From assembly GCA_029204225.1 (NCBI GenBank), contig CM055111.1, forward strand, positions 15,813,207 to 15,877,206: a stretch of DNA of 64,000 nt, in the 5' to 3' direction. This stretch comes from Diphasiastrum complanatum. Its lineage: Eukaryota > Streptophyta > Lycopodiopsida > Lycopodiales > Lycopodiaceae. Of this stretch, positions 1 to 57,715 are shown in pieces. A program made the position numbers and the translations under genes. Within the stretch, counting starts at the first letter, position 1. Each line of letters begins with the position of its first letter. The notes beneath the pieces were generated by a model. It saw only the letters and a program-made list of their open reading frames with translations. It searched no databases and had not been told where the DNA came from.

Positions 1-1100
1 TCAAGCAAGCACCAAGATCATGGTATTCAAGACTTAACTCTTTTCTTATCTCACTAGGATTTACCCTTAGTGACTATGATCCTTCCATGTATCTAAAGTT
101 TGTTGATAGCAATATTGTCATTCTTCTAATTTATGTTGATGACATTATTCTTTGTGGAAGTTGTATCAAGCTAGTTGATGAAACCAAGCTAGCACTTGGA
201 TGTGAGTTTAGAATGCAAGATCTAGGCTCAGAGATACATTACATCCTAGGCCTAGACATTGATTTTTATGAAAATCATGTCTTTATATGCCAATCTAGAT
301 ATGCTCACTCTATGTTGAAAAAATTCCATATGAAAAATTCTAAGAGCATAGATACTCCAATGGAGCAAATTGTAAAAGATCCTAATAAAGGTGATGAAAG
401 ATCCTTTGAGGACATCACGCTTTTTAGGAGTCTTGTAGGCTCCTTGATTTGGCTTACCATTACTAGGCCCGATCTTAGTTTTTGTGTGCACAAATTGAGT
501 CAATTTATGCAAGATCCTAAGATCCATCATTGGAAGATGGCCAAGAGGATTCTAAGATATGTATCTTCATCTTGTGATTATGGTCTACTCTATAAAAGTG
601 AAGATCTATCCATTATTGGCTACTCGGATTCAGACTTTGCAAGTGACAAGATGGATCGAAAGTCTATTAGTGCATACACTATCTTTCTTGGAGGCAATCT
701 AATATCTTGGCTTTCCAAAAAGCAAGATACTATATCTCTCTCTTCATGTGAGGCCGAGTAAAAAGCACTCACTACAACTACCAAAGAAGTGCTTTGGATC
801 AAGAGGTTATTAATGGAACTAAAGTGTATCAAGGAGGATGATCTACCAATGATCAAGTGTGATAATATCTCGGCCCAAGCTCTTGCCAATAATCCCATAT
901 TTCATGCAAGAAGCAAGCACATAGAAGTGGCACACCATTTTGTGAGAGAAAAGCTTATTGGAGGAGAAATCTATTTGGAGCATGTCAACTCGTCCTCTTG
1001 TATTGCCGATCTACTCACCAAGCCTTTGGGCAAAAGTGCTTTCATCAAGCATAGATCTAATCTTGGAGTTATATCAAGATCAATGCTCAAATCTTCATAG
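1..1100 (+). pseudogene. Copia internal region 0: reverse transcriptase C-terminus and RNase H, interrupted by a stop
   Basis: The reading frame enters from outside the window in the reverse transcriptase (RT) thumb region. The catalytic motif YVDD lies about 16 codons into the stretch beginning at 87, followed by the LGSEIHYILGLDI region and the RNase H part (SDSDFASDKMDRKS, later HARSKHIEVAHHFVRE and ADLLTKPL). A TAA at 759-761 replaces the TAC (Tyr) found in the copy at 8600, directly after SSCEAE. The same frame then continues to the natural stop at 1100. The stop and several silent changes are shared with the internal region at 9701-14471, not with the nearer ones. The frame is part of a copia pol polyprotein and is not functional as it stands. 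Confidence 0.93.
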
Positions 1101-1120
1101 ATAATTTTTTAGGAGGAGTG

Positions 1121-1855
1121 TGAAGAATTGAAAAAGATTATCTATGTTAGATATAGGGGTCTTATGTTTTTTACATCAAGCATCTAGGTGTAGGATGTTG
1201 ATAGGAATAAATTTGGCATAGATGGCAAATTATGCATTTCCACTTGTAATGCCACTATTGAGCCAAAATAGAGTAAGAGGCTAAACACTTGCCAATTAGA
1301 GTGTAGACAAGTGTAAAGTTTTTGTTTGATGAATTCCAAGAGGTCCAATAGGATTTAGAGGTGGAACCTTGTGAGGTCCAATAGGAAATTGAGGTGTGCT
1401 TGAATATAGTCCAGTAGAATTAAGAGGTGCATGGATCAATGATCCAATAGGATCAAGAGGTGACAAAATATGGTCCAATCATAGTTAAGCATAGTGGCAG
1501 CTCGTGGACCTACTAGTATCATTGTACTCCTCATTTTGAACCTAATTGATTTGGTGATTTCATGGATTTTGTGAGTTATTGGATTTCTAGCTTTCTCTCT
1601 CTACCCGAGAGCTCATGATGCATTTTCTCTCTCTACCCGAGGAGAGCAGCTTGTTTATACTTAGGTTATGTTTTGAATACTTCCCACATGTGTGAGTGAG
1701 AGTTGGAAGTGATTGAATGCATGTAGTAGTGTGTTTTTGCCATAGGATTCAAGATTGATCTTGAATCTCAATCTAGTCTTGATCTTGGTGCATCTACACA
1801 CCTTAGGAGATCACAAGTACATGTAGTGGACAATCCACACGTGTGAAATTCAACA
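1121..1855 (+). repeat. LTR_A of the tandem copia array
   Basis: The repeat is 735 bp, begins TGAAGAATTG and ends TTCAACA, with the primer-binding site next to it. It is preceded by the polypurine tract AGGAGGAGTG at 1111-1120. The U3 part carries degenerate GGTCCAATAGGAT-type repeats near 1340-1490. The variant GAATATAGTCC is shared with LTR_D, while LTR_B and LTR_C have GAAGATAGTCC. Confidence 0.95.
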
Positions 1856-2612
1856 TGGTATCAGAGCCTTCCTAAGGTAACCATGCATTTTGATCCATCT
1901 AAGTGAAGAAATTTTCATCAGTCTTGAGCTAGAAGTTGTCAAGGCCCATTTTCCTAGCTATCTTGTTCAATCTTGGATCAGAAGAGATCAAAAGGACATT
2001 GATTGGGTCTGACCTGGTACTGTATGGAATCAGGTGCTCATACACGTGTGAGAAACATCCAATTTCAGTTTGGAAGTTCTCTCTCATGTTTGATCCATTT
2101 ATCTTGCTTGATAGCTTGTTTTGAACCTATTTTTGTCTAGTTTCTGTTGCAATCAGTTTCATTCCATTTGGTTGAGCCAATCAAAAGTTATAAGCTTTTG
2201 AAGAGGGTTAGGTAGGGCACCTAGACCTGGGTGGACACATTTGATTTGGTCAAGAGATTGCTTGGTTGATCCAAAATCACAGTTGTATGCTTGCCAATCT
2301 CATCTATATGTGATCTAGGCACTGTTTTGAGATCTTAGCCATTTTGTTTCATGCAATATCATTGTATTTGAGTCAAATTTGGTTTCTTAGTGTATTTCAC
2401 ACTTGCTAAGAGTGTTAGATCTTAACTTTGCCTATACTCCATCATTTGATGTGAAAAAAATCTTGTTTTAGAGAGATTTGAGTAGCTAGTGAGAATCAAT
2501 TCACAAGTTGTTGTAAGATCTATCATAGGAGGAGATAGTACTCAATTATTGGATCCTATTGAAAGTGTGTAACAACATTTATTGTTCATCATTTGAGTTT
2601 TCTTCACTTCAA
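1856..2612 (+). other. Primer-binding site and untranslated leader, internal region 1
   Basis: TGGTATCAGAGC at 1856-1867 matches the 3' end of plant initiator Met-tRNA in the usual copia arrangement. The 757 bp leader that follows has no convincing coding sequence and has the same length in the three internal regions that include it. Short open frames in it are chance. Confidence 0.9.
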
Positions 2613-3440
2613 ATGTCTTCAATGGGTTCATCCTTGTTGGAACCAAGTGAAAGATTGACCAGTTCAAATTATTCAATTTGGAAAATGAGGATGGAGTCCA
2701 TCTTGATCCTTCAAGACGTGATGGAAATAGTTCTTGGCCTTGAAGAAGAACCACAAGTTCTTCAAGAGGTTCAAAAATACAAAAAGAGTGCTAGGATGGC
2801 TCTCCACTACATTAAGATGAATGTCTCTAATGAGATATTGAGGGAGATAGGTACTTGTACAACAGCCAAAGAAGCTTGGGATTGTCTCAAGACTATCTAT
2901 GAGGCTATGAATACCTCTAGGCTTCTCACTCTTAGGAATCAAATCTTTCAAAGTAGCCAAAAGAGTGACGAGAGTGCATCTAGTTATGTTTTGAGAGTAA
3001 AAGATATTCATAGAGAGCTTGCTTGCATTGGTGATTCCATCAATCAAAATGAGCTAGTTCAAGTCATTCTCTTTGGCTTGGTAAGTGAATTTGATAACCT
3101 TGTCCAATCCTATGCCATTAAGGAGGAGCTACCAAGTTTGGAGGCTCTCCAAAGTGTGCTAAAGTGCATCAAGGAGGATGATCTACCAATGATCAAGTGT
3201 GATAATATCTCGGCCCAAGCTCTTGCCAATAATCTCATATTTCATGCAAGAAGCGAGCACATAGAAGTGGCACACCATTTTGTGAGAGAAAAGCTTATTG
3301 GAGGAGAAATCTATTTGGAGCATGTCAACTCCTCCTCTTGTATTGCCGATCTACTCACCAAGCCTTTGAGCAAAAGTGCTTTCATCAAGCATAGATCTAA
3401 TCTTGGAGTTATATCAAGATCAATGCTCAAATCTTCATAG
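2613..3440 (+). pseudogene. Internal region 1: deletion derivative with in-frame gag/RNase H fusion
   Basis: An open frame of 275 codons counted from the likely gag start ATG at 2613; the frame is open upstream to 2559. Residues 1 to about 183 are the gag N-terminus (SNYSIWKMRMES, TAKEAWDCLKTIYEA). The sequence then jumps to the end of RNase H (KCIKEDDLPMIKCDN to ADLLTKPL). The join at 3159-3162 is a CTAA present at both parental positions (5499-5502 and 8664-8667 in the next unit), so 3165 bp are missing by that comparison. The zinc knuckle, protease, integrase and RT core are gone. The frame stays open across the join. The fusion could be translated, but no function is known. Both LTRs are intact, so the unit could in principle be transcribed and packaged in trans. 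Confidence 0.92.
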
Positions 3441-3460
3441 ATAATTTTTTAGGAGGAGTG

Positions 3461-4195
3461 TGAAGAATTGAAAAAGATTATCTATGTTAGATATAGGGGT
3501 CTTATGTTTTTTACATCAAGCATCTAGGTGTAGGATGTTGATAGGAATAAATTTGGCATAGATGGCAAATTATGCATTTCCACTTGTAATGCCACTATTG
3601 AGCCAAAATAGAGTAAGAGGCTAAACACTTGCCAATTAGAGTGTAGACAAGTGTAAAGTTTTTGTTTGATGAATTCCAAGAGGTCCAATAGGATTTAGAG
3701 GTGGAACCTTGTGAGGTCCAATAGGGAATTGAGGTGTGCTTGAAGATAGTCCAGTAGAATTAAGAGGTGCATGGATCAATGATCCAATAGGATCAAGAGG
3801 TGACAAAATATGGTCCAATCATAGTTAAGCATAGTGGTAGCTCGTGGACCTACTAGTATCATTGTACTCCTCATTTTGAATGCAATTGATTTGGTGATTT
3901 CCTGGATTTTGTGAGTTATTGGATTTCTAGCTTTCTCTCTCTACCCAAGAGCTCTTGATGCATTTTCTCTCTCTACCGGAGGAGAGCAGCTTGTTTTTAC
4001 TTAGATTATTTTTTTAATACTTCCCACACGTGTGAGTGAGAGTTGGAAGTGATTGAATGCATGTAGTAGTGTGTTTTTGCCATAGGATTCAAGATTGATC
4101 TTGAATCTCAATCTAGTCTTGATCTTGGTGCATCTACACACCTTAGGAGATCACAAGTACATGTAGTGGACAATCCACACGTGTGAAATTCAACA
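3461..4195 (+). repeat. LTR_B of the tandem copia array
   Basis: The repeat is 735 bp with the same ends as LTR_A. It serves both as 3' LTR of internal region 1 and 5' LTR of internal region 2. It has private changes, such as TTTTTTTAATAC where LTR_A, C and D read GTTTTGAATAC. Confidence 0.95.
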
Positions 4196-4952
4196 TGGTA
4201 TCAGAGCCTACCTAAGGTAACCATGCATTTTGATCCATCTAAGTGAAGAAATTTTCATCAGTCTTGAGCTAGAAGTTGTCAAGGCCCATTTTCCTAGCTA
4301 TCTTGTTCAATCTTGGATCAGAAGAGATCAAAAGGACATTGATTGGGTCTGACCTGGTACTGTATGGAATCAGGTGCTCAGACACGTGTGAGGAACATCC
4401 AATTTCAGTTTGGAAGTTCTCTCTCATGTTTGATCCATTTATCTTGCTTGATAGCTTGTTTTGAACCTATTTTTGTCTAGTTTCTGTTGCAATCAGTTTC
4501 ATTCCATTTGGTTGAGCCAATCAAAAGTTATAAGCTTTTGAAGAGGGTTAGGTAGGGCACCTAGACCTGGGTGGACACATTTGATTTGGTCAAGAGATTG
4601 CTTGGTTGATCCAAAATCACAGTTGTATGCTTGCCAATCTCATCTATATGTGATCTAGGCACTGTTTTGAGATCTTAGCCATTTTGTTTCATGCAATATC
4701 ATTGTATTTGAGTCAAATTTGGTTTCTTAGTGTACTTCACACTTGCTAAGAGTGTTAGATCCTAACTTTGCCTATACTCCATTATTTGATGTGAAATAGA
4801 TCTTGTTTTAGAGAGATTTGAGTAGCTAGTGAGAATCAATTCACAAGTTGTTGTAAGATCTTTCATAGGAGGAGATAGTACTCAATTATTGGATCCTATT
4901 GAAAGTGTGTAACAACATTTATTGTTCATCATTTGAGTTTTCTTCACTTCAA
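4196..4952 (+). other. Primer-binding site and untranslated leader, internal region 2
   Basis: TGGTATCAGAGC lies at 4196-4207, directly after LTR_B. The 757 bp leader is nearly identical to that at 1856-2612. Confidence 0.9.
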
Positions 4953-7103
4953 ATGTCTTCAATGGGTTCATCCTTGTTGGAACCAAGTGAAAGATTGACC
5001 AGTTCAAATTATTCAATTTGGAAAATGAGGATGGAGTCCATCTTGATCGTTCAAGACGTGATGGAAATAGTTATTGGCCTTGAAGAAGAACCACAAGTTC
5101 TTCAAGAGGTTCAAAAATACAAAAAGAGTGCTAGGATGGCTCTCCACTACATTAAGATGAATGTCTCTAATGAGATATTGAGGGAGATAGGTACTTGTAC
5201 AACAGCCAAAGAAGCTTGGGATTGTCTCAAGACTATCTATGAGGCTAAGAATACCTCTAGGATTCTCACTCTTAGGAATCAAATCTTTCAAAGTAGCCAA
5301 AAGAGTGACGAGAGTGCATCTAGTTATGTTTTGAGAGTAAAAGATATTCATAGAGAGCTTGCTTGCATTGGTGATTCCATCAATCAAAATGAGCTAGTTC
5401 AAGTCATTCTCAATGGCTTGAGAAGTGAATTTGATAACCTTGTCCAATCCTATGCCATTAAGGAGGAGCTACCAAGTTTGGAGGCTCTCCAAAGTGTGCT
5501 AATTTCAGAAGAATCAAGACAAGAGTACAAGCTCTTGAGGATGGACAAGCTTTCTCTCACTCATAATGATGGCAAAGCTCTCTTTGCCAAGGATAAGCAC
5601 AAAGCGAGGAGCAAGAACCAACATCAACAATCCTCAAGCAAGGACAAAGTCAAATCCAAAGACAAAGATGAGGAGGAAGATGATTCCTCTAATGCTTCAT
5701 CATCCAAGCTCAAGAAGAAGAAGATCAAGTGCCTTTATTGTGGCAAGAAAGGTCATTATGCCACCAATTGCTTCAAAAAGAAGAATCAACTCAAGCAAGC
5801 CAATATTACCAATGAGAAGGAAGACACTATTGCAAGTGATGGAGAGGGATCTCTTATGGTCTCTAGTTTCTCATCTACTCCTTTCAAGAAGGACGGCCTA
5901 TGGTATATTGATAGTGGAGCCTCTTCACGTATGTGTAGCTCCAAGGACTCTTTCTCTTCTATTGCACCTTATGATGGAGTTAAGAAATCAATATACACTG
6001 CAAATGATTTTGAATGTCCTATTGAAGGCATAGGGAACATTCCCTTGAAGCTTGCATCCTCTAAAGTTCCTTCTCTCTCTAGAGTTTTTTATGTACCTAA
6101 GCTTACCAAGAATCTTATTAGTGTTGGCCAATTGCTTGATAATGGCCTTGATGTAAAATTCAATGTTGATACTTGCACTATCAAGAAGAATGATGAGATA
6201 CTTGCATTAGGATCTAGATTTGGTGGCATCTATAAACTAGATCCAAATGAGTATGTGAATGCTTGTAATGTTGCTCTTGTGAACAAGCTCTCTATGGAGG
6301 AATTATGGCATAGGAGGTTGGGACATCCCCACTACAAATCCATGCTCTCTATGATCAAAGAATCCAAAGCTATTGGCTTGCCAAAGTCATTCTCCAAGAA
6401 GATCAAGCCTTGTGAGGCTTGTGCTATCGCTAAATCTCACAAAAAGCCATTTACAAGATCTTCTATCAAAAGCAAGCATCCTTTGGAGTTAATCCACTCG
6501 GATGTGCATTTCTCATCAACTACAAGCAAGGGAGGAGCCACTTGTTTTGTTACTTTCATTGATGATTACACAAGATTCATTTGGATATATCTTCTTGCAT
6601 CAAAATTTATGGTGTTTGATCATTTCCTTATTTTCAAAGCTTATGTAGAGAAGCAATTCTCGTTCAAGATTAAAGCTCTTAGAAGTGATGGAGGTGGTGA
6701 ATATATCTCCAATAAATTTCAAGATTTTTGTGAGCTTGAAGGCATTAAAAGAGAGTTTTCTTGTGCCTACTCTCCATCTCAAAATGGAGTGGCCGAGAGA
6801 AAGAATAGATCTCTATGTGAATGTGCAAAATCTATGAGAATCGAGGCATCTTTGCCCAAAGATTTTTGGGGAGAAGCCATTAATTGTGCAAATTGTCTTT
6901 GCAATAAGCTCCCACATATAGCTCTTGGAGGAAAGTCACCATATGAAATCTTATTTTTGAAGAAGCCTAAGGTTGATCACCTTAGAGTTTTTGGATGCTT
7001 ATGCTTTGTCCATATTCCCTTGGAAACAAGGAAGAAGGAAGATCCTAGTGCATGCAAAGGGATCATGGTTGGATACTCATCCACCAAGAAAGAAGGCCTA
7101 TAG
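4953..7103 (+). CDS. Copia gag-protease-integrase open frame (internal region 2)
   Basis: The frame is open from 4899, but MSSMGSS at 4953 is the likely start, giving about 716 codons. In order it holds a UBN2-type gag domain (residues about 15-190) and a lysine/serine-rich linker. A CCHC zinc knuckle follows (CLYCGKKGHYATNC, about 262-275), then an aspartic protease with DSGAS (about 329) and a GAG-pre-integrase HHCC region (WHRRLGHP to CEACAIAKSHKKPF). The integrase core shows the catalytic-type stretches HSDVHFSS, IDDYTRF, RSDGGGEY and ERKNRSL. Protease DSGASSRM here reads DSGASSHM in the copy at 10458; histidine is the common residue. The frame ends at 7103 in the integrase/RT linker because of a frame shift near 7086-7095; RT follows in the +1 frame. 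A single polyprotein frame is normal for copia, so this unit is probably inactive. Confidence 0.93.
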   Translation: MSSMGSSLLEPSERLTSSNYSIWKMRMESILIVQDVMEIVIGLEEEPQVLQEVQKYKKSARMALHYIKMNVSNEILREIGTCTTAKEAWDCLKTIYEAKNTSRILTLRNQIFQSSQKSDESASSYVLRVKDIHRELACIGDSINQNELVQVILNGLRSEFDNLVQSYAIKEELPSLEALQSVLISEESRQEYKLLRMDKLSLTHNDGKALFAKDKHKARSKNQHQQSSSKDKVKSKDKDEEEDDSSNASSSKLKKKKIKCLYCGKKGHYATNCFKKKNQLKQANITNEKEDTIASDGEGSLMVSSFSSTPFKKDGLWYIDSGASSRMCSSKDSFSSIAPYDGVKKSIYTANDFECPIEGIGNIPLKLASSKVPSLSRVFYVPKLTKNLISVGQLLDNGLDVKFNVDTCTIKKNDEILALGSRFGGIYKLDPNEYVNACNVALVNKLSMEELWHRRLGHPHYKSMLSMIKESKAIGLPKSFSKKIKPCEACAIAKSHKKPFTRSSIKSKHPLELIHSDVHFSSTTSKGGATCFVTFIDDYTRFIWIYLLASKFMVFDHFLIFKAYVEKQFSFKIKALRSDGGGEYISNKFQDFCELEGIKREFSCAYSPSQNGVAERKNRSLCECAKSMRIEASLPKDFWGEAINCANCLCNKLPHIALGGKSPYEILFLKKPKVDHLRVFGCLCFVHIPLETRKKEDPSACKGIMVGYSSTKKEGL

Positions 7104-8945
7104 AGTCTTTATACTCTCTACTTCTCAAGTTATTGAAAGTAGAGATGTTGTCTTTCATGAATATCAACACTCATCATTTGAAGAGGCCGAGATCAAGAAA
7201 TCTATGGATGCATCATCAATTATTCATTTTGAAGACAATCATGATGTGATGGGGTCGAGATTTGAAGAAGACTCTCCTCGGATTTTTTCACCAAGAAGAT
7301 CCATGAGAGATAGATCCGAGCCTAAGAGGCTCTCATATGTTGACAAAGGCAAACAAGTGGATCTTGATTCCACTGATTATGTTTTTCATGTCTCTCATGA
7401 AGAGCCAAAGAATGTACAAGAGGCACTCAATACCAAGGAGTGGTATGATGCCATGAAGCAAGAGTATGATGCATTGATCACCAACAATACTTGGGAGCTT
7501 GTGGATCCTCCATCCAACAAGCATGTGATTGGTTGCAAGTGGGTATTTCGGATCAAGTTCAATCATGATGGCACCATCAACAAGCATAAAGCAATACTAT
7601 GTGCTAAAGGATTTGCTCAAATCCATGGTCTTGATTATGAGGAGACCTTTGCACCTGTTGCAAAGATGGTGACAATAAGAATTCTTATTTCTCTTGCTTG
7701 TTTTTTCAAGTGGAAGGTGTTCCAATTAGATGTATCCAATGCTTTTCTAAATGGTTATCTTGAGGAGGAGATCTATATGGAACAACCTCAAGGATTCATC
7801 GAGGATGAGTCCAAAGTGTGCTTGCTCTTCAAAAGACTTTATGGACTCAAGCAAGCACCAAGATCATGGTATTCAAGACTTAACTCTTTTCTTATCTCAC
7901 TAGGATTTACTCTTAGTGACTATGATCCTTCCATGTATCTAAAGTTTGTTGATAGCAATATTGTCATTCTTCTAATTTATGTTGATGACATTATTCTTTG
8001 TGAAAGTTGTATCAAGCTAGTTGATGAAACCAAGCTAGCACTTGGATGTGAGTTTAGAATGCAAGATCTAGGCTCAGAGATACATTACATCCTAGGCCTA
8101 GACATTGATTTTTATGAAAATCATGTCTTTATATGCCAATCTAGATATGCTCACTCTATGTTGAAAAAATTCCATATGGAAAATTCTAAGAGCATAGATA
8201 CTCCAATGGAGCAAATTGTAAAAGATCCTAATAAAGGTGATGAAAGATCCTTTGAGGACATCACACTTTTTAGGAGTCTTGTAGGCTCCTTGATTTGGCT
8301 TACCATTACTAGGCCCGATCTTAGTTTTTGTGTGCACAAATTGAGTCAATTTATGCAAGATCCTAAGATCCATCATTGGAAGATGGCCAAGAGGATTCTA
8401 AGATATGTATCTTCATCTTGTGATTATGGTCTACTCTATAAAAGTGAAGATCTATCTATTATTGGCTACTGGATTCGGACTTTGCAAGTGACAAGATGGA
8501 TCGAAAGTCTATTAGTGCATACACTATCTTTCTTGGAGGCAATCTAATATCTTGGCTTTCCAAAAAGCAAGATACTATATCTCTCTCTTCATGTGAGGCC
8601 GAGTACAAAGCACTCACTACAACTACCAAAGAAGTGCTTTGGATCAAGAGGTTATTAATGGAACTAAAGTGCATCAAGGAGGATGATCTACCAATGATCA
8701 AGTGTGATAATATCTCGGCCCAAGCTCTTGCCAATAGTCCCATATTTCATGCAAGAAGCAAGCACATAGAAGTGGCACACCATTTTGTGAGAGAAAAGCT
8801 TATTGGAGGAGAAATCTATTTGGAGCATGTCAACTCATCCTCTTGTATTGCCGATCTACTCACCAAGCCTTTGAGCAAAAGTGCTTTCATCAAGCATAGA
8901 TCTAATCTTGGAGTTATATCAAGATCAATGCTCAAATCTTCATAG
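7093..8945 (+). pseudogene. Copia reverse transcriptase-RNase H (internal region 2), frameshifted
   Basis: Continues the polyprotein in the +1 frame from about 7093. It begins with the KAYRVFILS end of the linker, then RT: YDAMKQEYDAL, NNTWELVDPP, EETFAPVAKM, QLDVSNAFLNG, YGLKQAPRSWY and catalytic YVDD near 7980. A one-base deletion near 8470 (TACTGGATTC against TACTCGGATTC in the other copies) shifts the frame so the RT frame ends at 8547. RNase H continues in the original gag frame from about 8496 to 8945. This copy keeps the tyrosine codon after SSCEAE that is a stop in internal regions 0 and 3. With two frameshifts it cannot make a full polyprotein. Confidence 0.92.
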
Positions 8946-8965
8946 ATAATTTTTTAGGAGGAGTG

Positions 8966-9700
8966 TGAAGAATTGAAAAAGATTATCTATGTTAGATATA
9001 GGGGTCTTATGTTTTTTACATCAAGCATCTAGGTGTAGGATGTTGATAGGAATAAATTTGGCATAGATGGCAAATTATGCATTTCCACTTGTAATGCCAC
9101 TATTGAGCCAAAATAGAGTAAGAGGCTAAACACTTGCCAATTAGAGTGTAGACAAGTGTAAAGTTTTTGTTTGATGAATTCCAAGAGGTCCAATAGGATT
9201 TAGAGGTGGAACCTTGTGAGGTCCAATAGGGAATTGAGGTGTGCTTGAAGATAGTCCAGTAGAATTAAGAGGTGCATGGATCAATGATCCAATAGGATCA
9301 AGAGGTGACAAAATATGGTCCAATCATAGTTAAGCATAGTGGCAGCTCGTGGACCTACTAGTATCATTGTACTCCTCATTTTGAAGCTAATTGATTTGGT
9401 GATTTCATGGATTTTGTGAGTTATTGGATTTCTAGCTTTCTCTCTCTACCCGAGAGCTCATGATGCATTTTCTCTCTCTACCCGAGGAGAGCAGCTTGTT
9501 TTTACTTAGATTATGTTTTGAATACTTCCCACATGTGTGAGTGAGAGTTGGAAGTGATTGAATGCATGTAGTAGTGTGTTTTTGCCATAGGTTTCAAGAT
9601 TGATCTTGAATCTCAATCTAGTCTTGATCTTGGTGCATCTACACACCTTAGGAGATCACAAGTACATGTAGTGGACAATCTAGACGTGTGAAATTCAACA
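8966..9700 (+). repeat. LTR_C of the tandem copia array
   Basis: The repeat is 735 bp, preceded by AGGAGGAGTG. It is shared by internal regions 2 and 3 and is close to LTR_B in the diagnostic GAAGATAGTCC position. Confidence 0.95.
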
Positions 9701-10457
9701 TGGTATCAGAGCTTACCTAAGGTAACCATGCATTTTGATCCATCTAAGTGAAGAAATTTTCATCAGTCTTGAGCTAGAAGTTGTCAAGGCCCATTTTCCT
9801 AGCTATCTTGTTCAATCTTGGATCAGAAGAGATCAAAAGGACATTGATTGTGTCTGACCTGGTACTGTATGGAATCAGGTGCTCAGACACGTGTGAGGAA
9901 CATCCAATTTCAATTTGGAAGTTCTCTCTCATGTTTGATCCATTTATCTTGCTTGATAGCTTGTTTTGAACCTATTTTTGTCTAGTTTCTGTTGCAATCA
10001 GTTTCATTCCATTTGGTTGAGCCAATCAAAAGTTATAAGCTTTTGAAGAGGGTTAGGTAGGGCACCTAGACCTGGGTGGACACATTTGATTTGGTCAAGA
10101 GATTGCCTGGTTGATCCAAAATCACAGTTGTATGCTTGCCAATCTCATCTATATGTGATCTAGGCACTGTTTTGAGATCTTAGCCATTTTGTTTCATGCA
10201 ATATCATTGTATTTGAGTCAAATTTGGTTTCTTAGTGTATTTCACACTTGCTAAGAGTGTTAGATCCTAACTTTGCCTATACTCCATCATTTGATGTGAA
10301 ATAGATCTTGTTTTAGAGAGATTTGAGTAGCTAGTGAGAATCAATTCACAAGTTGTTGTAAGATCTTTCATAGGAGGAGATAGTACTCAATTATTGGATC
10401 CTATTGAAAGTGTGTAACAACATTTATTGTTCATCATTTGAGTTTTCTTCACTTCAA
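9701..10457 (+). other. Primer-binding site and untranslated leader, internal region 3
   Basis: TGGTATCAGAGC lies at 9701-9712, followed by the same 757 bp leader as in the other units, with a few substitutions. Confidence 0.9.
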
Positions 10458-12608
10458 ATGTCTTCAATGGGTTCATCCTTGTTGGAACCAAGTGAAAGAT
10501 TGACCAGTTCAAATTATTCAATTTGGAAAATGAGGATGGAGTCCATCTTGATCCTTCAAGACGTGATGGAAATAGTTCTTGGCCTTGAAGAAGAACCACA
10601 AGTTCTTCAAGAGGTTCAAAAATACAAAAAGAGTGCTAGGATGGCTCTCCACTACATTAAGATGAATGTCTCTAATGAGATATTGAGGGAGATAGGTACT
10701 TGTACAACAGCCAAAGAAGCTTGGGATTGTCTCAAGACTATCTATGAGGCTAAGAATACCTCTAGGCTTCTCACTCTTAGGAATCAAATCTTTCAAAGTA
10801 GCCAAAAGAGTGACGAGAGTGCATCTAGTTATGTTTTGAGAGTAAAAGATATTCATAGAGAGCTTGCTTGCATTGGTGATTCCATCAATCAAAATGAGCT
10901 AGTTCAAGTCATTCTCAATGGCTTGGGAAGTGAATTTGATAACCTTGTCCAATCCTATGCCATTAAGGAGGAGCTACCAAGTTTGGAGGCTCTCAAAAGT
11001 GTGCTAATTTCAAAAGAATTAAGACAAGAGTACAAGCTCTTGAGGATGGACAAGCTTTCTCTCACTCATAATGATGGCAAAGCTCTCTTTGCCAAGGATA
11101 AGCACAAAGGGAGGAGCAAGAACCAACATCAACAATCCTCAAGCAAGGACAAAGTCAAATCCAAAGACAAAGATGAGGAGGAAGATGATTCCTCTAATGC
11201 TTCATCATCCAAGCTCAAGAAGAAGAAGATCAAGTGCCTTTATTGTGGCAAGAAAGGTCATTATGCCACCAATTGCTTCAAAAAGAAGAATCAACTCAAG
11301 CAAGCCAATATTACCAATGAGAAGGAAGACACTATTGAAAGTGATGGAGAGGGATCTCTTATGGTCTCTAGTTTCTCATCTACTCCTTTCAAGAAGGACG
11401 GCCTATGGTATATTGATAGTGGAGCCTCTTCACATATGTGTAGCTCCAAGGACTCTTTCTCTTCTATTGCACCTTATGATGGAGTTAAGAAATCAATATA
11501 CACTGCAAATGATTTTGAATGTCCTATTGAAGGCATAGGAAACATTCCCTTGAAGCTTGCATCCTCTAAAGTTCCTTCTCTCTCTAGAGTTTTTTATGTA
11601 CCTAAGCTTACCAAGAATCTTATTAGTGTTGGCCAATTGCTTGATAATGGCCTTGATGTAAAATTCAATGTTGATACTTGCACTACCAAGAAGAATGATG
11701 AGATACTTGCATTAGGATCTAGATTTGGTGGCATCTATAAACTAGATCCAAATGAGTATGTGAATGCTTGTAATGTTGCTCTTGTGAACAAGCTCTCTAT
11801 GGAGGAATTATGGCATAGGAGGTTGGGACATCCCAACTACAAATCCATGCTCTCTATGATCAAAGAATCCAAAGCTATTGGCTTGCCAAAGTCATTTTCC
11901 AAGAAGATCAAGCCTTGTGAGGCTTGTGCTATCGCTAAATCTCACAAAAAGCCATTTACAAGATCTTCTATCAAAAGCAAGCATCCTTTGGAGTTAATCC
12001 ACTCGGATGTGCATTTCTCATCAACTACAAGCAAGGGAGGAGCCACTTGTTTTGTTACTTTCATTGATGATTACACAAGATTCACTTGGATATATCTTCT
12101 TGCTTCAAAATTTATGGTGTTTGATCATTTCCTTATTTTCAAAGCTTATGTAGAGAAGCAATTCTCGTTCAAGATTAAAGCTCTTAGAAGTGATGGAGGT
12201 GGTGAATATATCTCCAATAAATTTCAAGATTTTTGTGAGCTTGAAGGCATTAAAAGAGAGTTTTCTTGTGCCTACTCTCCATCTCAAAATGGAGTGGCCG
12301 AGAGAAAGAATAGATCTCTATGTGAATGTGCAAAATCTATGAGAATCGAGGCATCTTTGCCCAAAGATTTTTGGGGAGAAGCCATTAATTGTGCAAATTG
12401 TCTTTGCAATAAGCTCCCACATATAGCTCTTGGAGGAAAGTCACCATATGAAATCTTATTTTTAAAGAAGCCTAAGGTTGATCACCTTAGAGTTTTTGGA
12501 TGCTTATGCTTTGTCCATATTCCCTTGGAAACAAGGAAGAAGGAAGATCCTAGTGCATGCAAAGGGATCATGGTTGGATACTCATCCACCAAGAAAGAAG
12601 GCCTATAG
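10458..12608 (+). CDS. Copia gag-protease-integrase open frame (internal region 3)
   Basis: Same length and domain order as the frame at 4953. It has the gag N-terminus, the CCHC knuckle, protease DSGASSHM with the usual histidine, the HHCC pre-integrase region (LGHPNYKSML) and the integrase core with IDDYTRF and RSDGGGEY. It stops at 12608 at exactly the equivalent position, with the same AAGAAAGAAGG context and TAG, before the RT frame. The frame break is therefore common to both full-length units and older than their separation, unless it is a programmed +1 shift. Of the units, this one has the best-preserved protease and gag. Confidence 0.93.
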   Translation: MSSMGSSLLEPSERLTSSNYSIWKMRMESILILQDVMEIVLGLEEEPQVLQEVQKYKKSARMALHYIKMNVSNEILREIGTCTTAKEAWDCLKTIYEAKNTSRLLTLRNQIFQSSQKSDESASSYVLRVKDIHRELACIGDSINQNELVQVILNGLGSEFDNLVQSYAIKEELPSLEALKSVLISKELRQEYKLLRMDKLSLTHNDGKALFAKDKHKGRSKNQHQQSSSKDKVKSKDKDEEEDDSSNASSSKLKKKKIKCLYCGKKGHYATNCFKKKNQLKQANITNEKEDTIESDGEGSLMVSSFSSTPFKKDGLWYIDSGASSHMCSSKDSFSSIAPYDGVKKSIYTANDFECPIEGIGNIPLKLASSKVPSLSRVFYVPKLTKNLISVGQLLDNGLDVKFNVDTCTTKKNDEILALGSRFGGIYKLDPNEYVNACNVALVNKLSMEELWHRRLGHPNYKSMLSMIKESKAIGLPKSFSKKIKPCEACAIAKSHKKPFTRSSIKSKHPLELIHSDVHFSSTTSKGGATCFVTFIDDYTRFTWIYLLASKFMVFDHFLIFKAYVEKQFSFKIKALRSDGGGEYISNKFQDFCELEGIKREFSCAYSPSQNGVAERKNRSLCECAKSMRIEASLPKDFWGEAINCANCLCNKLPHIALGGKSPYEILFLKKPKVDHLRVFGCLCFVHIPLETRKKEDPSACKGIMVGYSSTKKEGL

Positions 12609-14451
12609 AGTCTTTATACTCTCTACTTCTCAAGTTATTGAAAGTAGAGATGTTGTCTTTCATGAAGATCAACACACATCATTTGAAGAGGCCGAGATCA
12701 AGAAATCTATGGATGCATCATCAATTATTGATTTTGAAGACAATCATGATGTGATGGGGTCGAGATTTGAAGAAGACTCTCCTCGGATTTTTTCACCAAG
12801 AAGATCCATGAGAGATAGATCCGAGCCTAAGAGGCTCTCATATGTTGACAAAGGCAAACAAGTGGATCTTGATTCCACTGATTATGTTTTTCATGTCTCT
12901 CATGAAGAGCCAAAGAATGTACAAGAGGCACTCAATACCAAGGAGTGGTATGATGCCATGAAGCAAGAGTATGATGCATTGATCACCAACAATACTTGGG
13001 AGCTTGTGGATCCTCCATCCAACAAGCATGTGATTGGTTGCAAGTGGGTATTTCGGATCAAGTTCAATCATGATGGCACCATCAACAAGCATAAAGCAAT
13101 ACTATGTGCTAAAGGATTTGCTCAAATCCATGGTCTTGATTATGAGGAGACCTTTTTTTTTGTTGCAAAGATGGTGACAATAAGAATTCTTATTTCTCTT
13201 GCTTGTTTTTTCAAGTGGAAGGTGTTCCAATTAGATGTATCCAATGCTTTTCTAAATGGTTATCTTGAGGAGGAGATCTATATGGAACAACCTCAAGGAT
13301 TCATCAAGGATGAGTCCAAAGTGTGCTTGCTCTTCAAAAGTCTTTATGGACTCAAGCAAGCACCAAGATCATGGTATTCAAGACTTAACTCTTTTCTTAT
13401 CTCACTAGGATTTACTCTTAGTGACTATGATCCTTCCATGTATCTAAAGTTTGTTGATAGCAATATTGTCATTCTTCTAATTTATGTTGATGACATTATT
13501 CTTTGTGGAAGTTGTATCAAGCTAGTTGATGAAACCAAGCTAGCACTTGGATGTGAGTTTAGAATGCAAGATCTAGGCTCAGAGATACATTACATCCTAG
13601 GCCTAGACATTGATTTTTATGAAAATCATGTCTTTATATGCCAATCTAGATATGCTCACTCTATGTTGAAAAAATTCCATATGAAAAATTCTAAGAGCAT
13701 AGATACTCCAATGGAGCAAATTGTAAAAGATCCTAATAAAGGTGATGAAAGATCCTTTGAGGACATCACGCTTTTTAGGAGTCTTGTAGGCTCCTTGATT
13801 TGGCTTACCATTACTAGGCCCGATCTTAGTTTTTGTGTGCACAAATTGAGTCAATTTATGCAAGATCCTAAGATCCATCATTGGAAGATGGCCAAGAGGA
13901 TTCTAAGATATGTATCTTCATCTTGTGATTATGGTCTACTCTATAAAAGTGAAGATCTATCCATTATTGGCTACTCGGATTCGGACTTTGCAAGTGACAA
14001 GATGGATCGAAAGTCTATTAGTGCATACACTATCTTTCTTGGAGGCAATCTAATATCTTGGCTTTCCAAAAGGCAAGATACTATATCTCTCTCTTCATGT
14101 GAGGCTGAGTAAAAAGCTCTCACTACAACTACCAAAGAAGTGCTTTGGATCAAGAGGTTATTAATGGAACTAAAGTGTATCAAGGAGGATGATCTACCAA
14201 TGATCAAGTGTGATAATATCTCGGCCCAAGCTGTTGCCAATAATCCCATATTTCATGCAAGAAGCAAGCACATAGAAGTGGCACACCATTTTGTGAGAGA
14301 AAAGCTTATTGGAGGAGAAATCTATTTGGAGCATGTCAACTCGTCCTCTTGTATTGCCGATCTACTCACCAATCCTTTGAGCAAAAGTGCTTTCATCAAG
14401 CATAGATCTAATCTTGGAGTTATATCAAGATCAATGCTCAAATCTTCATAG
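12598..14451 (+). pseudogene. Copia reverse transcriptase-RNase H (internal region 3), nonsense and core mutation
   Basis: RT-RNase H in the +1 frame relative to gag. The fingers motif read as EETFAPVAKM in the copy at 7640 is EETFFFVAKM here: GCACC is replaced by TTTTT with no length change, giving a run of nine T at 13153-13161. QLDVSNAFLNG, YGLKQAPRSWY and YVDD (near 13485) are kept. A TAA at 14110-14112 after SSCEAE truncates RNase H. Its frame resumes without a shift and ends at 14451 with ADLLTNPL (the others have ADLLTKPL). The nonsense codon is the same as at 759. This copy is inactive. Confidence 0.92.
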
Positions 14452-14471
14452 ATAATTTTTTAGGAGGAGTG

Positions 14472-15206
14472 TGAAGAATTGAAAAAGATTATCTATGTTA
14501 GATATAGGGGTCTTATGTTTTTTACATCAAGCATCTAGGTGTAGGATGTTGATAGGAATAAATTTGGCATAGATGGCAAATTATGCATTTCCACTTGTAA
14601 TGCCACTATTGAGCCAAAATAGAGTAAGAGGCTAAACACTTGCCAATTAGAGTGTAGACAAGTGTAAAGTTTTTGTTTGATGAATTCCAAGAGGTCCAAT
14701 AGGATTTAGAGGTGGAACCTTGTGAGGTCCAATAGGGAATTGAGGTGTGCTTGAATATAGTCCAATAGAATTAAGAGGTGCATGGATCAATGATCCAATA
14801 GGATCAAGAGGTGACAAAATATGGTCCAATCATAGTTAAGCATAGTGGCAGCTCGTGGACCTACTAGTATCATTGTACTCCTCATTTTGAAGCTAATTGA
14901 TTTGGTGATTTCATGGATTTTGTGAGTTATTGGATTTCTAGCTTTCTCTCTCTACCGGAGAGCTCATGATGCATTTTCTCTCTCTACCCGAGGAGAGCAG
15001 CTTGTTTTCACTTAGATTATGTTTTGAATACTTCCCACACGTGTGAGTGAGAGTTGGAAGTGATTGAATGCATGTAGTAGTGTGTTTTTGCCATAGGATT
15101 CAAGATTGATCTTGAATCTCAATCTAGTCTTGATCTTGGTGCATCTACACACCTTAGGAGATCACAAGTACATTTAGTGGACAGTCCACATGTGTGAAAT
15201 TCAACA
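14472..15206 (+). repeat. LTR_D, terminal LTR of the copia array
   Basis: The repeat is 735 bp and ends TTCAACA. The following bases, TTTGTATGTCGG, are not a primer-binding site, so this is the right end of the array. It shares GAATATAGTCC with LTR_A. The target-site duplication cannot be checked because the left end of the array is outside the window. Confidence 0.94.
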
Positions 15207-15467
15207 TTTGTATGTCGGAGTTTTCTTGTTCCCTTTGAATTTCGCATCTTGGTTGAAAAATAAAGTCGAATGCTCTATTAATTTTATGAACATAGATCAG
15301 TAGTAACTGACTACTCTCTAGAGGATTGTAGGAGTGTTTCCGCTAGTAGTGCCCAGCAAACGCGTATGAACTCCATCCGAATCTCGAAAGAGAGTCACAA
15401 ATGTTTCGTGAATTTTCTTCTCATGATTCTCATCATTCGTATCGGAGCACCGCTCGACTCCCAACAG
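15207..15467 (+). repeat. Probable 3' part of an unrelated copia LTR
   Basis: Not coding. It ends CGACTCCCAACA, followed one base later by a Met-tRNA primer-binding site, as expected for the R-U5 end of another LTR that the array inserted into or recombined with. No second copy is seen in the window. Confidence 0.55.
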
Positions 15468-15480
15468 TGGTATCAGAGCC
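15468..15480 (+). other. tRNA-Met primer-binding site of a second copia element
   Basis: TGGTATCAGAGCC lies after the LTR-like end CCCAACAG. About 470 bp of weakly coding, unrecognised leader-like sequence follow (15481-15950), and no copia gag is recognisable there. Confidence 0.7.
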
Positions 15481-15949
15481 ACCCTGTCATATTCTGTCAT
15501 AGCCGAGAAGCTACCAGATCTAGGAGGCCAAGCATTCAGACAATCAACCATCAACAAGAAAAAAGACTTCAAAAAACAATGATTGTTATATGGAAAAAAA
15601 CAATGGTGAAGAGGCTTGTTGAAGAACCTTATCAAGGTGTTCAAAATCTGCATGAGAATATGCCACAAGTAGACCATGGTAGCATAAGAGAAGATTTAAT
15701 CGGGAAGAGAGCTATAATATGATCAGCACAACATGATAAATTGGGTATGCGTTTGGTTTTGTTAGTTTATCCCTATGAGCCTATCATCTTCAAGGAGCTT
15801 GGGGATGGGAACTTAGGGGTGGTTATAGAATTTATTATTGGGCATACGAATTTTTCATCTAGCATTGGCAACTCAAATCTTGCAAATGTGAGTTTGATTA
15901 GTTGTCCAACAAACCAACTCACTTTTGAAGATGGCACTCCATTGAAAAT

Positions 15950-18696
15950 CATTGAAAGAAAATGCTCATGTTGATGACAATGATTGTATTCAATGTGAAG
16001 CTCAAGAGGAAAACAACAATGGTGATGATGGTGGACACCATATGGAGGATATCCTAAATCAACGTGTGGCTAGTAAAATGAAGTATAAAATGATAATAAG
16101 GAAGCCTCAAGACAAATTTCATGTTCGCCACTCCAATAAATGTGCACAAGAGGCTGTTCCAAACATGTGGCTACCATTGATTTTTGTGAGAAAAAATGTT
16201 GTCAAATGGCAGATCGAGAGAAGACTATGCAACTCAGAGTAGAACATTGGGGACAAATTCATAGTCAACGCGTGACACGTGCCTATGATAACTTGACTAT
16301 GGCTTGGCATGATGAAAAAAAAGGAAAGCAGCTGAAGTTAACTTTTGATGGAAAAGAAATTTGTTGCATTGCTTGGTACACTATACATGGCATTCCAAAT
16401 ACTACTTTTTATAGATACAAGCAACAATACATGGAAGGGACAACAAAAGCAATGCATGAAAATAAAGGCATCATCAGAAAAGCATGGGATCACGTCGATA
16501 TGGGAAAGGCAATTATACAAGATTTTATTGACAACAATGCAGTAAGGATGCCACATAAAAGCCGCACATCATTTTTTGATGGAGCACGAGAACCACAACT
16601 TGTTCTCCCGACAATGTATAAGCAAATCAATATTTTGCATGAGGTTAATATTACTTTGAATGAATTGGGATATAAGAGAATGTCAAAGTCTACATTTCAT
16701 AGACTATGGCATACAACATTCAAAACTGTTAGTCTTTCAAAGACAAGCACATTTTCAAAGTGTGATATTTGCACATCAATTAAATTGCAGCTAGAATGTA
16801 CTAGAAATTGAGTGGAGCGTGCAAAATATCTCATGAAAAGAAGAATGCACATGCTTCAACAAATGAGTTGTAGGAATGTTTATTATGGTTAGAGATTGTA
16901 CTCGGAACTACATCCAAATAAGTATTTGTGGATTATTCATGATAAGATGGATCAACAAAAGACATCCATACCATGATTGCAGCCTATACCAAAATCATTG
17001 GGCCATGCGATGCAATTACTGATATCATTGACAAAAATGATAACACATGGACATGGTCAAAATGGATATGGACACTTTTCAATGGGTCTTTGGCCAGGGG
17101 ATCCCAATTTTACAATGGGCTCTCTAGCAATGTGTTACGAAATTTGGAGAGAAAGGAAAAGCATGTTTATGGAGACTTGTTGCTTGCAGAGAAAACATCG
17201 TCATCAAGAAATCAGTTTACAACTTTAACTTCAAGAGTGGCATTGGATTACCATATGGAGGTAAAAAACGAAGATAATAAGTATACACAAGTGCAATGTG
17301 AAGCCATTGAGCATAGCAAAAATGTGGCTTCAACAACTTTTGGTCATCTGCCAGGTGAGAATGTTGGATGCAACCAAGTCATGGGCTCAACAATGCCTAC
17401 TCAGTTGCAAAGTGAATATGTTCAATGTGCACAAGATAATTCAACGGGATCTGCAAGTTTCAAATGCTTGCCTTCTATGTTGCTACTACAATTAGACAAT
17501 TGTGGATCTAAAAATAAGAATAGATATATGTTTGCATATCTTTCCTTGCTTGTCGCTAGAGGAGTCTTTGAGATGGTTCAATTAGGGTTTCTCATGGTGG
17601 GGCATACACATGAGGATATTGATGCATTGTTTAGTCGCTTCTCATAAAATCTTAGAAGAAAATGTGTATTCACATTTCCTCATCTAATGCGATGCTTCGA
17701 TGAGTGTACAAGTTCAAATCCTGCTCCATTCCTAGTTAAAGAGGTTCCAAACTTTAAAGATTATGTAGACGGTGGTTTGTGTGATAAGAACAAAAGATTG
17801 GTTGGACACCCCAAACCATTGCAATTTCATTTTTACATGCAAGATGGTGTACCATTGATGCAATACAAAATGCACCCTAAGGCAATTGAATGGCTACCAC
17901 AAGAAGATATTGAGCTTTGGGAGCGTGATTCTCAAAATAAGCCAAAGCTTTCTCAAGGACAACCAAAAATTGTTCTGGTCTTTGAATACATCAAAAATAA
18001 TAAGCAAATCTTAGAAGGTCTAAAAAGTTATGTCTCTTTTTGAAAAACAGGGGTGCATGAGGTCAAGAATCATATACAAAGTGGATTCAACCAGTCATTG
18101 AGTATTGGGAGAACATGATTAATTTTATAAAAACACCGACCATGCAAGAGCCTATTGTTTGTAAGGAGTTTTGGCCTAGAAGTTCAATTTTCATGGAAAA
18201 AGAAAATCATGTTCACGATGTTGATTGAGATATGATGGGATTGAAAGCGCGTGATGGGCATTATTGTGGTCCAGCTCTCAATAAACCAAGGGAAGCATTC
18301 AACCCTGAGATTGACGTAAAGAGGAATGACTTTATTCTTGTGAGGCCAAGTGACACAATATATCCAATATGGCTGTGAACTACCATGAGTGATATTGATA
18401 CAAATAGGACATCCACAAACTACATGAAAGTGAAGGTACAATATTGGGCTCCTATCTCACAAAGAAAAGGTGCATCCGATGCTGAGGTATGTATTGATTG
18501 TTGGAATAAGTACTGGCGCTGCAACAAAAGAGATCCTGAGCGATGAGAGAATTTGAACACAATTGTTTGGAGTTGGACAACGAAAGAAGTCTTAGGATGT
18601 AGAAATGTAGCTATCAAAATACCAAAAAGTGTGTGCTTAAAAGCAAAAGAAAACCTTAAAATGGCAGAGAACAATGACGATGACATTGTAATGTGA
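15950..18696 (+). pseudogene. DUF7869-type (transposase-like) gene, broken
   Basis: Several collinear fragments read as one old protein. The first, 16140-16811, has Cys/His-rich CTRGCSKHV and CEKKCC, then ICCIAWYTIHGIPNTTFYRY and near its end KCDICTSIK. At 16940-17140 the stretch around IIHDKMDQQKTS and MITHGHGQNGYGHFSMG spans a frame change. At 17460-17647 follows LLLQLDNCGSKNKNRYMFAY, then LGFLMVGHTHEDIDALFSRF and a TAA at 17645. 17687-18043 and 18235-18696 (GHYCGPALNKP, IYPIW, WNKYWRC) complete it. The LDNC and GHTHEDID motifs are what I associate with DUF7869 proteins, which look like RNase H-fold transposases; that family call is from memory. At least two frame changes and several in-frame stops disable it. 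No splice sites or terminal inverted repeats were identified. Confidence 0.65.
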
Positions 18697-18815
18697 TCAT
18701 TGTTTTGTATTTGAATTGAATAAAATAAAGAGAAAAAAAGACAATCAAACCAAACAAGAAAGAAAATGTTGAATTTGTTCCAAAATCAAGAAAGATTCCC
18801 AAAATTACTAAAACA

Positions 18816-19440
18816 GTGTTCACAGAAACCAGAAAAGTTAAAAAAGTAACATCTTCAAATCCAATTATAAGTAGCGAGATACCTAGAGATCTGTCGCCAC
18901 TTAGAACCCGTTCATATGATATAGTAGAAGACCTTGTCTCCAGAATGCCCAATATAACTTTTAAACAGTTATTAGACGATAATCAGTATTATAAGAAAGA
19001 AATTAAGCAATTTTTGCAAAGGAAAAAGAAAAGAGAAGCGAATTACCATTAGTCAACGTAGGATTAGTTAACTACGGTCATAAGGGTCAACCCGAGATTC
19101 AAGTTGTGATCAATGGCTGCATTTTAGATAGTGTGCCCATAGATTCCGGATTTAGCTTAAACATAATGACTAAAGAAACAACATACGAGTTAGGCATTCA
19201 CCATAGAATAACACCCACATTAAGACATTTAAGGTTAGCTGATGCAACTAGACGAGCACCGATAGGAGAATTGTCAATAGTTATAGTCTACATTGGAGAC
19301 CATAAGTTCCTAATGGATTTTATTATATTAAAAACTGCAAGAGAATCTTCGTATAAGTATTATTAGGATGACCATGGCTCTACCATGCTGATGTCATAAC
19401 CCACTGGAAGAAGAAGGAGATTACCTTCAGAGATCAGATG
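18816..19440 (+). pseudogene. Gypsy pre-protease linker and first aspartic-protease domain
   Basis: 18816-19050 encodes the linker seen before gypsy proteases (YDIVEDLVSRMPNITFKQLL). A frame change leads to the protease: VINGCILDSVPIDSGFSLNI carries the DSG active-site triad near 19143, followed by the flap-side stretch LRHLRLADATRRAPIGELS. A stop near 19363 precedes PWLYHADVITHWKKKEITF, the end typical of gypsy proteases. Retropepsins act as dimers, so one copy per polyprotein is expected. A second protease domain follows in the next 600 bp. It is inactive because of the stops. Confidence 0.75.
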
Positions 19441-20040
19441 GAGACACCGACGAGGAAATGTCACAAAAAAATTATGATATCCTGGGAAAAAGATAAGTAC
19501 GAAGGTGAGACACCTACATCATCCTCGAGCTATACCTCAGAGGATGAAGGGATTCAGTCCATAAGGACTGAGGAAGGAGAGAGGTTTGTCACACTAAGTA
19601 TACCTGCATATAGTAATAAAGTAGAATATGTAGATAGAGGAGATTGTAGAGTTCTAGAGATTAGTGCTATTATAGGAGACCATATTGTAGATAGAATACT
19701 AATAGACTCAGGATCCAGCATCAACTTAATAACAGAAACAATGGCTAAGGAATTAGGACTAGAAAAACATATAGAGACTATTATTTACCATGAAATCCAT
19801 TTAGCAAACACATCCAAATGCATACCAGTACGTGAGCTAAAAGGTATTAGTGTAGTTATAGAGACATAGATGTTTGTTATGAATTTCTTTGTTATAAACC
19901 TAGTAGATACACCATCGTATTGAATATTATTTGGAAGACCGTGGCTATATCAAGCAGATGCTATTATAAATTGGTCTACCAAACAAATATTTTTTTCAGG
20001 CATTCTCACAGCCAGTCCAATAGGGGGTCACATTTGGAGA
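19441..20040 (+). pseudogene. Second gypsy aspartic-protease domain
   Basis: The open stretch 19438-19869 has a charged linker (SSSYTSEDEG) and then a full retropepsin-like core: DRILIDSGSSINLITETMAKELG carries DSG near 19707. A TAG at 19867 and a TGA near 19921 interrupt it before FGRPWLYQADAIINW. It resembles the upstream domain (IDSG, TKE/TMAKE, PWLY.AD) but is clearly diverged, so this is not a recent duplication. The next part leads into the RT-proximal linker. Confidence 0.78.
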
Positions 20041-21700: not shown

Positions 21701-21880
21701 ATTTATATGGACATTATTAACTTTTTACAGGACCAGATTTATCTTGAACATTTTAATAAACAACAAAAAATTGTTTTCTTTTCAAAAGTAGGACCTTATA
21801 CGATTATAAACAGAATATAGTAGAGAGACTCGAATTCCTATAGTGGAGTTGCATGGAAAGTCCACTTAACTGAACTAATT

Positions 21881-22060
21881 CACCTACCAGAGATCCACAT
21901 GTATAACTGCATGCATGGATATTGCATGTACTGCATGTAAACTCATAAAACTGCCTAGACATGTGTAGATCACAGAAACTACTTTGCATGTTGCATGCAC
22001 TGATTGCATGTGGCTTGCATGCATACAGAAAGATATTGCATGCTATCTAAACAGTTGCAG
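21881..22060. other. TGCATG (RY-type) motif cluster
   Basis: Between about 21905 and 22045 TGCATG occurs roughly ten times on the plus strand, some overlapping as TGCATGCATG. TGCATG is palindromic with CATGCA, the RY core bound by plant B3 factors of the ABI3/FUS3/LEC2 type. It may be a simple-sequence by-product; no gene start is placed right next to it. Confidence 0.5.
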
Positions 22061-22415
22061 GTCATCAAAATTGAATCTACCTAACCCAAACTCGACCTAT
22101 TATAGAAGGTTATGTGCTCAATTCACATACCTCTCCCAAAGAATTTTTCTCGTACAAAATGATGAGCCACTTCGGTATGTTTTCTCCTCGCATGGAACAC
22201 TGGATTATTTGCAAGAGCCTGAGCAAAACTGTTATCATACTCCCCTATAGTATTGGTGTGATTCGGCACCCCCCCCCATACCACGCACTCTACCCAAGCT
22301 GGTAAAGCACGTTTTTCTCTCTCTAGGATTTTCTCTTTCTAGAAAGTCATTTTCTCTCTCTAGCTTTTATTGATCCCCAGGCTTCCTTTAATCATGCCTA
22401 GATCGTGTGAGGTGA

Positions 22416-37756: not shown

Positions 37757-37789
37757 TGGTATCAGAGCATACCCACATGGTATAAGAGC
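37757..37789 (+). other. Duplicated tRNA-Met primer-binding site
   Basis: TGGTATCAGAGC at 37757 is followed 21 bp later by TGGTATAAGAGC at 37778, each preceded by CACA. The right arm has the same pair in reverse order (58191-58223). Confidence 0.8.
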
Positions 37790-39725: not shown

Positions 39726-39800
39726 ACTAAGTGATTACGTAGCAAAACATAAAGCATTGAATTATCAGACAGATAATAAGAGATTAATAATGCAAAAATC
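39726..39800 (-). repeat. Copia A LTR fragment, reversed
   Basis: GTGATTACGTAGC.AAAC....GCATTGAATTATCAGAC matches the reverse complement of the LTR A stretch near 37495-37550. It marks the junction between elements A and B. Confidence 0.55.
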
Positions 39801-41632: not shown

Positions 41633-41639
41633 TGATAAA

Positions 41640-57703: not shown

Positions 57704-57715
57704 TAATAGGATCTC

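Follow-up and report, generated by a model that had tools for sequence, protein, structure and literature searches.

A tandem array of a dead copia element in Diphasiastrum complanatum, probably built by recombination after a single insertion

Arrays in which neighbouring retrotransposon units share a long terminal repeat (LTR) have been reported to be widespread and polymorphic in plants, their origin at a rice locus being left open (Morales-Diaz et al. 2025, PMC11899658). In Triticeae, recombination or template switching has given rise to complex elements whose internal regions share an LTR (Sabot and Schulman 2007, PMC1950507). Among terminal-repeat retrotransposons in miniature (TRIMs), Cassandra arrays have up to 13 LTRs by polymerase chain reaction (PMC7215508) and Wukong arrays three to seven (PMC4528315). 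Here we analyze a tandem array of copia units in the lycopod Diphasiastrum complanatum. The window, a stretch of 64,000 nucleotides (C20:15813207-15877206, contig CM055111.1, in an assembly of 1.74 Gb in 5176 contigs), contains most of this array, and we refer to the window locus as A. Sequence comparison with related loci of the same genome makes it very probable that A is a recombined array of dead copia, built by misaligned recombination after a single insertion.

With the last LTR as a query, four direct LTR copies were found in the window, ending at positions 1855, 4195, 9700, and 15206; the first, second, and third are 98.5%, 97.8%, and 98.5% identical to the fourth. The LTRs alternate with Ty1/copia internal regions, the inner LTRs are shared, and there is no host DNA between the units, in agreement with the tandem structure described in an initial annotation of the window. 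At the inner junctions the primer-binding site (PBS) and the polypurine tract (PPT) directly adjoin the LTRs, which have TG...CA ends, and self-comparison of the window gave a period of 5505 bp at ∼98.9% identity over 6.5 kb. The LTR borders of the initial annotation (1121-1855, 3461-4195, 8966-9700, and 14472-15206) reproduced its internal lengths of 1605, 4770, and 4771 bp, but its LTR length of exactly 735 bp has to be revised. Because single elements at three other loci have perfect 5-bp target-site duplications (TSDs; TTTGT at D, CCATT at E, and ACAAG at F) only when the LTR starts two bases earlier, with TG, each LTR is 737 bp long. The array starts at C20:15812386, 821 bp to the left of the window, position 1 being the window edge only. 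Its leftmost unit breaks off abruptly at internal position 2831, without a 5′ LTR and without a left TSD. The 1605-bp internal region is that of the same unit, except that 3166 bp are missing from it, bordered on either side by CTAA. In searches of the assembly with such joints, in which 40 places were scored per query, this deletion joint was matched whole in the window only (1/40).

Five other loci on C20 (B, C, D, K, and M) share flanks or junctions with the window. We distinguish a first-unit type, represented by the first units of B and C (B0 and C0), from a last-unit type, represented by the second unit of C (C1) and the last unit of the window (A3). In these terms, the array and its right border consist of the following features.

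1-1118, plus strand: unit 0, the truncated 3′ part of a copia internal region, starting at C20:15812386 at internal position 2831
1119-1855, plus strand: LTR1, 737 bp, first-unit type, grouping with the first LTR of loci B and C
1856-3458, plus strand: unit 1 internal region without 3166 bp (internal columns 1304-4469), with CTAA microhomology
3459-4195, plus strand: LTR2, 737 bp, a chimera with a last-type left side (marker L266), a first-type right side, and a tract of another subfamily
4196-8963, plus strand: unit 2 internal region, a mosaic of the two unit types
8964-9700, plus strand: LTR3, 737 bp, with the chimeric marker pattern of LTR2
9701-14469, plus strand: unit 3 internal region
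14470-15206, plus strand: LTR4, 737 bp, last-unit type, grouping with the last LTR of locus C (94/94)
15207-15211, no strand: TTTGT, the right TSD copy, both copies being retained at locus D
15207-22132, no strand: right flank common to loci C and D, with K and M matching at least as far as fetched

The left truncation joint of the array was matched over its full length at 3 of the 40 scored places, all of them on C20: A, B (18.29 Mb), and C (19.52 Mb, inverted). The joint between the last LTR and the right flank was matched in full at six of 40 places, of which five are on C20 at 96-100% (A, C, D at 16.83 Mb, K at 19.20 Mb, and M at 16.92 Mb) and the sixth is on C4 at 88%. Locus D holds a single full-length element with TTTGT on both sides and with both the left and the right flank of A. 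At locus C, a truncated unit is followed by an LTR, an internal region without positions 53-1399, and another LTR that leads into the right flank of A, i.e., a two-LTR array. Locus B consists of a truncated unit, an LTR, and internal positions 1-1469 up to a break. In K and M, the element is truncated at internal position 3135, with one LTR and the right flank retained. Compared to D, locus A lacks 4.7 kb, made up of 1.2 kb of flank, the 5′ LTR, and internal positions 1-2830; the joint of this deletion, at which A shows two additional bases without obvious homology, is also present in B and C. The initial annotation had proposed a search for a left boundary with a 5-bp TSD matching the bases after position 15206. 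These bases are TTTGT, as at D, so the right copy is in place; the left copy was lost in the 4.7-kb deletion shared with B and C, and the complete pair is found at D. Taken together, these comparisons indicate that D is the insertion of the window in its single-copy form. A separate idea, that the 5′ half of the array came from another family member (∼96.5-97% identity to D), was dropped, as D turned out to be an outlier in the first 700 internal bases.

Divergence between these loci was expressed as Kimura two-parameter (K80) distances, which we report without ages, no substitution rate having been tested. The left flanks of A, B, and C differ from one another by 0.0071-0.0076 and the right flanks of A and C by 0.0068-0.0091; the flank distance is 0.0149-0.0251 between A and D, 0.0234-0.0286 between K or M and A, C, or D, and 0.0173 between K and M. 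LTRs compared by position gave 0.0054 for A1-B1, 0.0082 for A1-C1, and 0.0068 for A4-C2, and left and right LTRs gave 0.0151 for A1-A4, 0.0165 for C1-C2, and 0.0235 for D5-D3. Since the distances by position resemble those of the flanks and the left-right distances are larger, at least two units were probably present before A, B, and C separated. An LTR tree contained the groups A4 and C2 (94/94), A1, B1, C1, and A3 (88/89), and D5 and D3 (91/89), and it placed A2, which is LTR2 of the window, with the copies E, H, and J (88/95).

Exchange between units is seen in the distribution of markers. Nine markers, with a 4-base insertion in pol (see below) counted as one, separate the first-unit type from the last-unit type. 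In unit 0, four internal markers are of the last type and the five LTR markers of the first type, and unit 2 carries the last-type insertion, is first-type at 4070-4412, returns to the last type at L266, and is first-type from L486 onward. Both LTR2 and LTR3 are last-type at L266 and first-type at the four later markers (L486 onward), and they have L285 in common, which is absent from the five remaining array units in the comparison. Units 0 and 2 are therefore mosaics of two unit types, and LTR2 and LTR3 represent one chimeric type, which is the pattern predicted by unequal crossing-over between LTRs. LTR2 also differs from A1, A3, A4, B1, C1, and C2 at ten sites, four of which are its own and six of which match E, H, and J (one J copy deviates at one of them); of these six, K shares two and F shares two. 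The subfamily tract lies around LTR positions 380-552 (6/10 sites). A transversion excess in unit 1 was noted as well and is explained only as far as this tract in LTR2 reaches.

We further counted conflicts between pairs of informative sites, leaving out unit 1, in which most of the region is missing. Conflicts were found in 62 of 136 pairs among 17 sites. Recombination-free simulations, with 300 runs for each of three rate models, reached this fraction 0, 0, and 1 times (1/900), where the fraction was counted only in runs with at least 50 site pairs, and where simulated divergence (1.8-2.0%) was above that observed and the mean number of informative sites was 26-29 versus 17 here. A raw count of at least 62 conflicts occurred 5, 16, and 57 times among the 300 runs per model.

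Pfam domains were detected in copia order (Retrotran_gag_2, Pol_BBD, gag_pre-integrs, rve, SH3_retrovirus, and RVT_2). As expected for Ty1/copia, gag is followed by protease/integrase and then by reverse transcriptase (RT), the TG...CA LTRs have the PBS and PPT beside them, and 5-bp TSDs are found at D, E, and F, though not at the left end of the window array itself. The PBS, TGGTATCAGAGC, also occurs in the search pattern for plant Cassandra elements in PMC7215508, and because of this and its copia type we regard the element as plant-type. Open frames are located in two units.

4899-7103 and 6973-8547, plus strand: unit 2 open frames, gag to integrase and RT, respectively
10404-12608 and 12478-14112, plus strand: unit 3 open frames

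Pol is broken in all three window units in which it could be tested (0, 2, and 3). Each has the 4-base frameshift insertion between integrase and RT, a region that unit 1 lacks. The RNase H region is interrupted by a stop in units 0 and 3. Unit 2 is free of stops there but has lost one base close to where RNase H starts, just before the stop site, a deletion that is absent from units 0 and 3. Outside the window, the insertion is present in C1 and J and absent from B0, C0, D, E, F, H, and I, K and M being without the region; the stop was found in C1 and H among the copies compared. The shared frameshift and stop had suggested that every unit derives from one dead template, but both lesions are missing from B0 and C0, and we rejected this explanation in favor of mosaicism. 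Between units 2 and 3, with 29 nonsynonymous and 11 synonymous differences (p 0.32), no purifying selection was visible. Copy J (C15:32011001-32021000) has the 4-base insertion of the window units but not their other markers, pointing to recurrence or exchange. In the RT region of unit 3 (window 13156-13160), five adjacent T replace the GCACC of unit 2 without a change in length; a base error or local repair may account for this run. When viral contigs were searched with the RT region, three pattern matches and no confirmed relative were obtained, and neither ARAGORN (bacterial code) nor Rfam gave matches in the window.

The family forms shared-LTR junctions at other places in the genome. A 1137-bp junction query (internal-LTR-internal) was matched over its full length at no fewer than 20 places, i.e., at 20 of the 40 scored among 3210 first-look candidates, so that the counts are lower bounds: three in A, one in B, and 16 elsewhere. 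Four further scored places, one of them in C, match largely on both sides, and the other 16 on one side only. Two of the 16 full-length matches elsewhere belong to an array of the same family at C4:36284001-36304000, with three LTRs that differ at 1-4 of 737 sites, two full internal regions, and a third broken by an inverted piece; this array, the one that we read, is younger than that of the window. The rarity implied by the initial annotation is not supported, given the recurrence of the junctions and the wide occurrence of arrays in plants reported in PMC11899658.

The single copy at D, the two-LTR array at the paralogous locus C, the mosaic units, and the chimeric inner LTRs argue for recombination after insertion, and they support the repeated unequal recombination put forward in the initial annotation. 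In the history that we propose, one copia element would have inserted once on C20, generating the TTTGT TSD, and the surrounding DNA would then have been copied to at least six places on C20. In the branch leading to A, B, and C, misaligned homologous recombination between LTRs would have produced a tandem array, and a 4.7-kb deletion would have taken away its left end. After the separation of A, B, and C, the window copy may have gained additional units: if a last-type LTR crossed over with one of the first type, the chimeric inner LTR would result, and a further exchange would double the chimera. Solo LTRs are to be expected as the reciprocal outcome of such LTR-LTR exchange. Later reshaping would have included conversion between units, the acquisition of one tract from another subfamily, and a 3.2-kb deletion. 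We infer the order of these events, the ancestral state of D, and crossover rather than another DNA-copying process.

Several observations weigh against this history. Over the body of the element, the window units are no more similar to D than to the unlinked copy F (for internal positions 2831-4771, distances of 1.29% for both D-unit 2 and F-unit 2 and 1.14% for D-F), and the case for a shared insertion therefore depends on flanks and joints. On its left side, the LTR chimera is marked by a single site, L266, whose state also occurs in H, and none of the branches in the LTR tree passed both support thresholds. Since J, which lies on another chromosome, shares the frameshift insertion and H shares the RNase H stop, such lesions can recur or move. 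Finally, D could be a contracted array. The element would then have inserted as a multimer, through template switching between two RNAs or from a read-through or circular template, with D reduced later by LTR-LTR recombination. Template-switching complexes with TSDs have been described in grasses (PMC1950507), array insertion is held possible in rice (PMC11899658), and with the left end of the array lost, its own TSD pair cannot be compared. We nevertheless consider insertion as a multimer improbable: D is one element with a perfect TSD, the outermost LTRs present in the window, LTR1 and LTR4, differ at 11/737 sites, A4 groups with the last LTR of C and not with A1, and the mosaic units need later exchange anyway. 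For the concatemeric insertion that the initial annotation offered as an alternative we found no positive evidence, although it could conceivably account for the first doubling, since D could be a contraction.

Complex elements are classically explained by the fusion of two or more independent neighbouring insertions through LTR recombination, with removal of the intervening DNA (PMC1950507), and the other-subfamily sites of LTR2 could be read in this way. Such a fusion is scarcely credible at A, where the right joint is that of one insertion common to A, C, D, K, and M, the inner and outer units form a set with the units of C at the marker sites, and no second insertion lies beside D. That one unit was written repeatedly in the assembly, or that copies of other loci were joined, is very improbable too, even if 5.5-kb units ∼1% apart are hard to assemble and the run of five adjacent changes to T in unit 3 is odd. 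Private variants and one private deletion distinguish the units, the fetched stretches contain no N, the paralogous loci differ in unit number and orientation, and a separate array of the family exists on C4; assembly error at the window array is thus unlikely.

To the right of the array, homology to C and D stops at window position 22132, and the match between C and D continues beyond; this position is an edge of the duplicated segment. Within the segment, open frames with DUF7869 matches are found at 16140-18040. The rest of the window contains a direct repeat of ∼2.2 kb (49468-51666 and 61770-64000, 97.5-98% identical, cut by the window end), whose copies are possibly the LTRs of a large element. 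Another repeat is present as two inverted copies (36269-41635 and 56020-59628, 93-96% over the main blocks), the second of which includes a weak RVT_2 match at 57329-57700.

The loci on C20 also raise a more speculative possibility, which we regard as doubtful, that a 3.7-Mb stretch is turning dead copia into a young satellite-like repeat via segmental duplication together with LTR exchange and conversion. If this were true, the steps from a single insertion to an array would be readable within one genome. Literature searches on tandem LTRs with segmental duplication and gene conversion, and on internal LTRs, returned no papers, which does not imply an absence from print.

The structure itself is of a kind already known, and the evidence for recombination after insertion is rather direct. 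Like the Triticeae complexes (PMC1950507), the array has two or more internal regions that share an LTR, and a chimeric inner LTR is the mark of recombination there; LTR2 and LTR3 are of this form, with one marker on the left side. The Triticeae complexes have three LTRs, and their recombinant class joins two independent insertions without matching TSDs, whereas here one insertion, seen at D as a single TSD-flanked copy, was apparently multiplied. The TSDs and near-identical outer LTRs of the template-switching class are not seen at A, where the left end is deleted and LTR1 and LTR4 differ as given above, a comparison that is not clean because the original outer LTR is lost. The TRIM arrays of Cassandra and Wukong likewise share LTRs and are partly ascribed to recombination (PMC7215508, PMC4528315), but they consist of small non-coding elements, unlike the 5.5-kb copia with a broken gag-pol described here.

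A close match is also seen with the tandem LTR retrotransposon structures of PMC11899658. In both cases, LTRs and internal regions alternate head to tail with shared inner LTRs, as required of a tandem LTR retrotransposon, and tandem, single, and solo-LTR states are described at one site there. Clear cases in that report start and finish with an LTR, and the window array, with a truncated internal region at its left, would be classed as a degenerated tandem. In contrast to the rice locus, the array studied here lacks its left end and is compared with duplicated loci within one genome, and exchange between units, which was left unresolved in rice, is revealed by marker mosaics. One insertion is thus available in single TSD-flanked, truncated, two-LTR, and four-LTR forms, with marker exchange between units, and the choice between insertion as an array and later recombination, left open at the rice locus, becomes testable at one locus.

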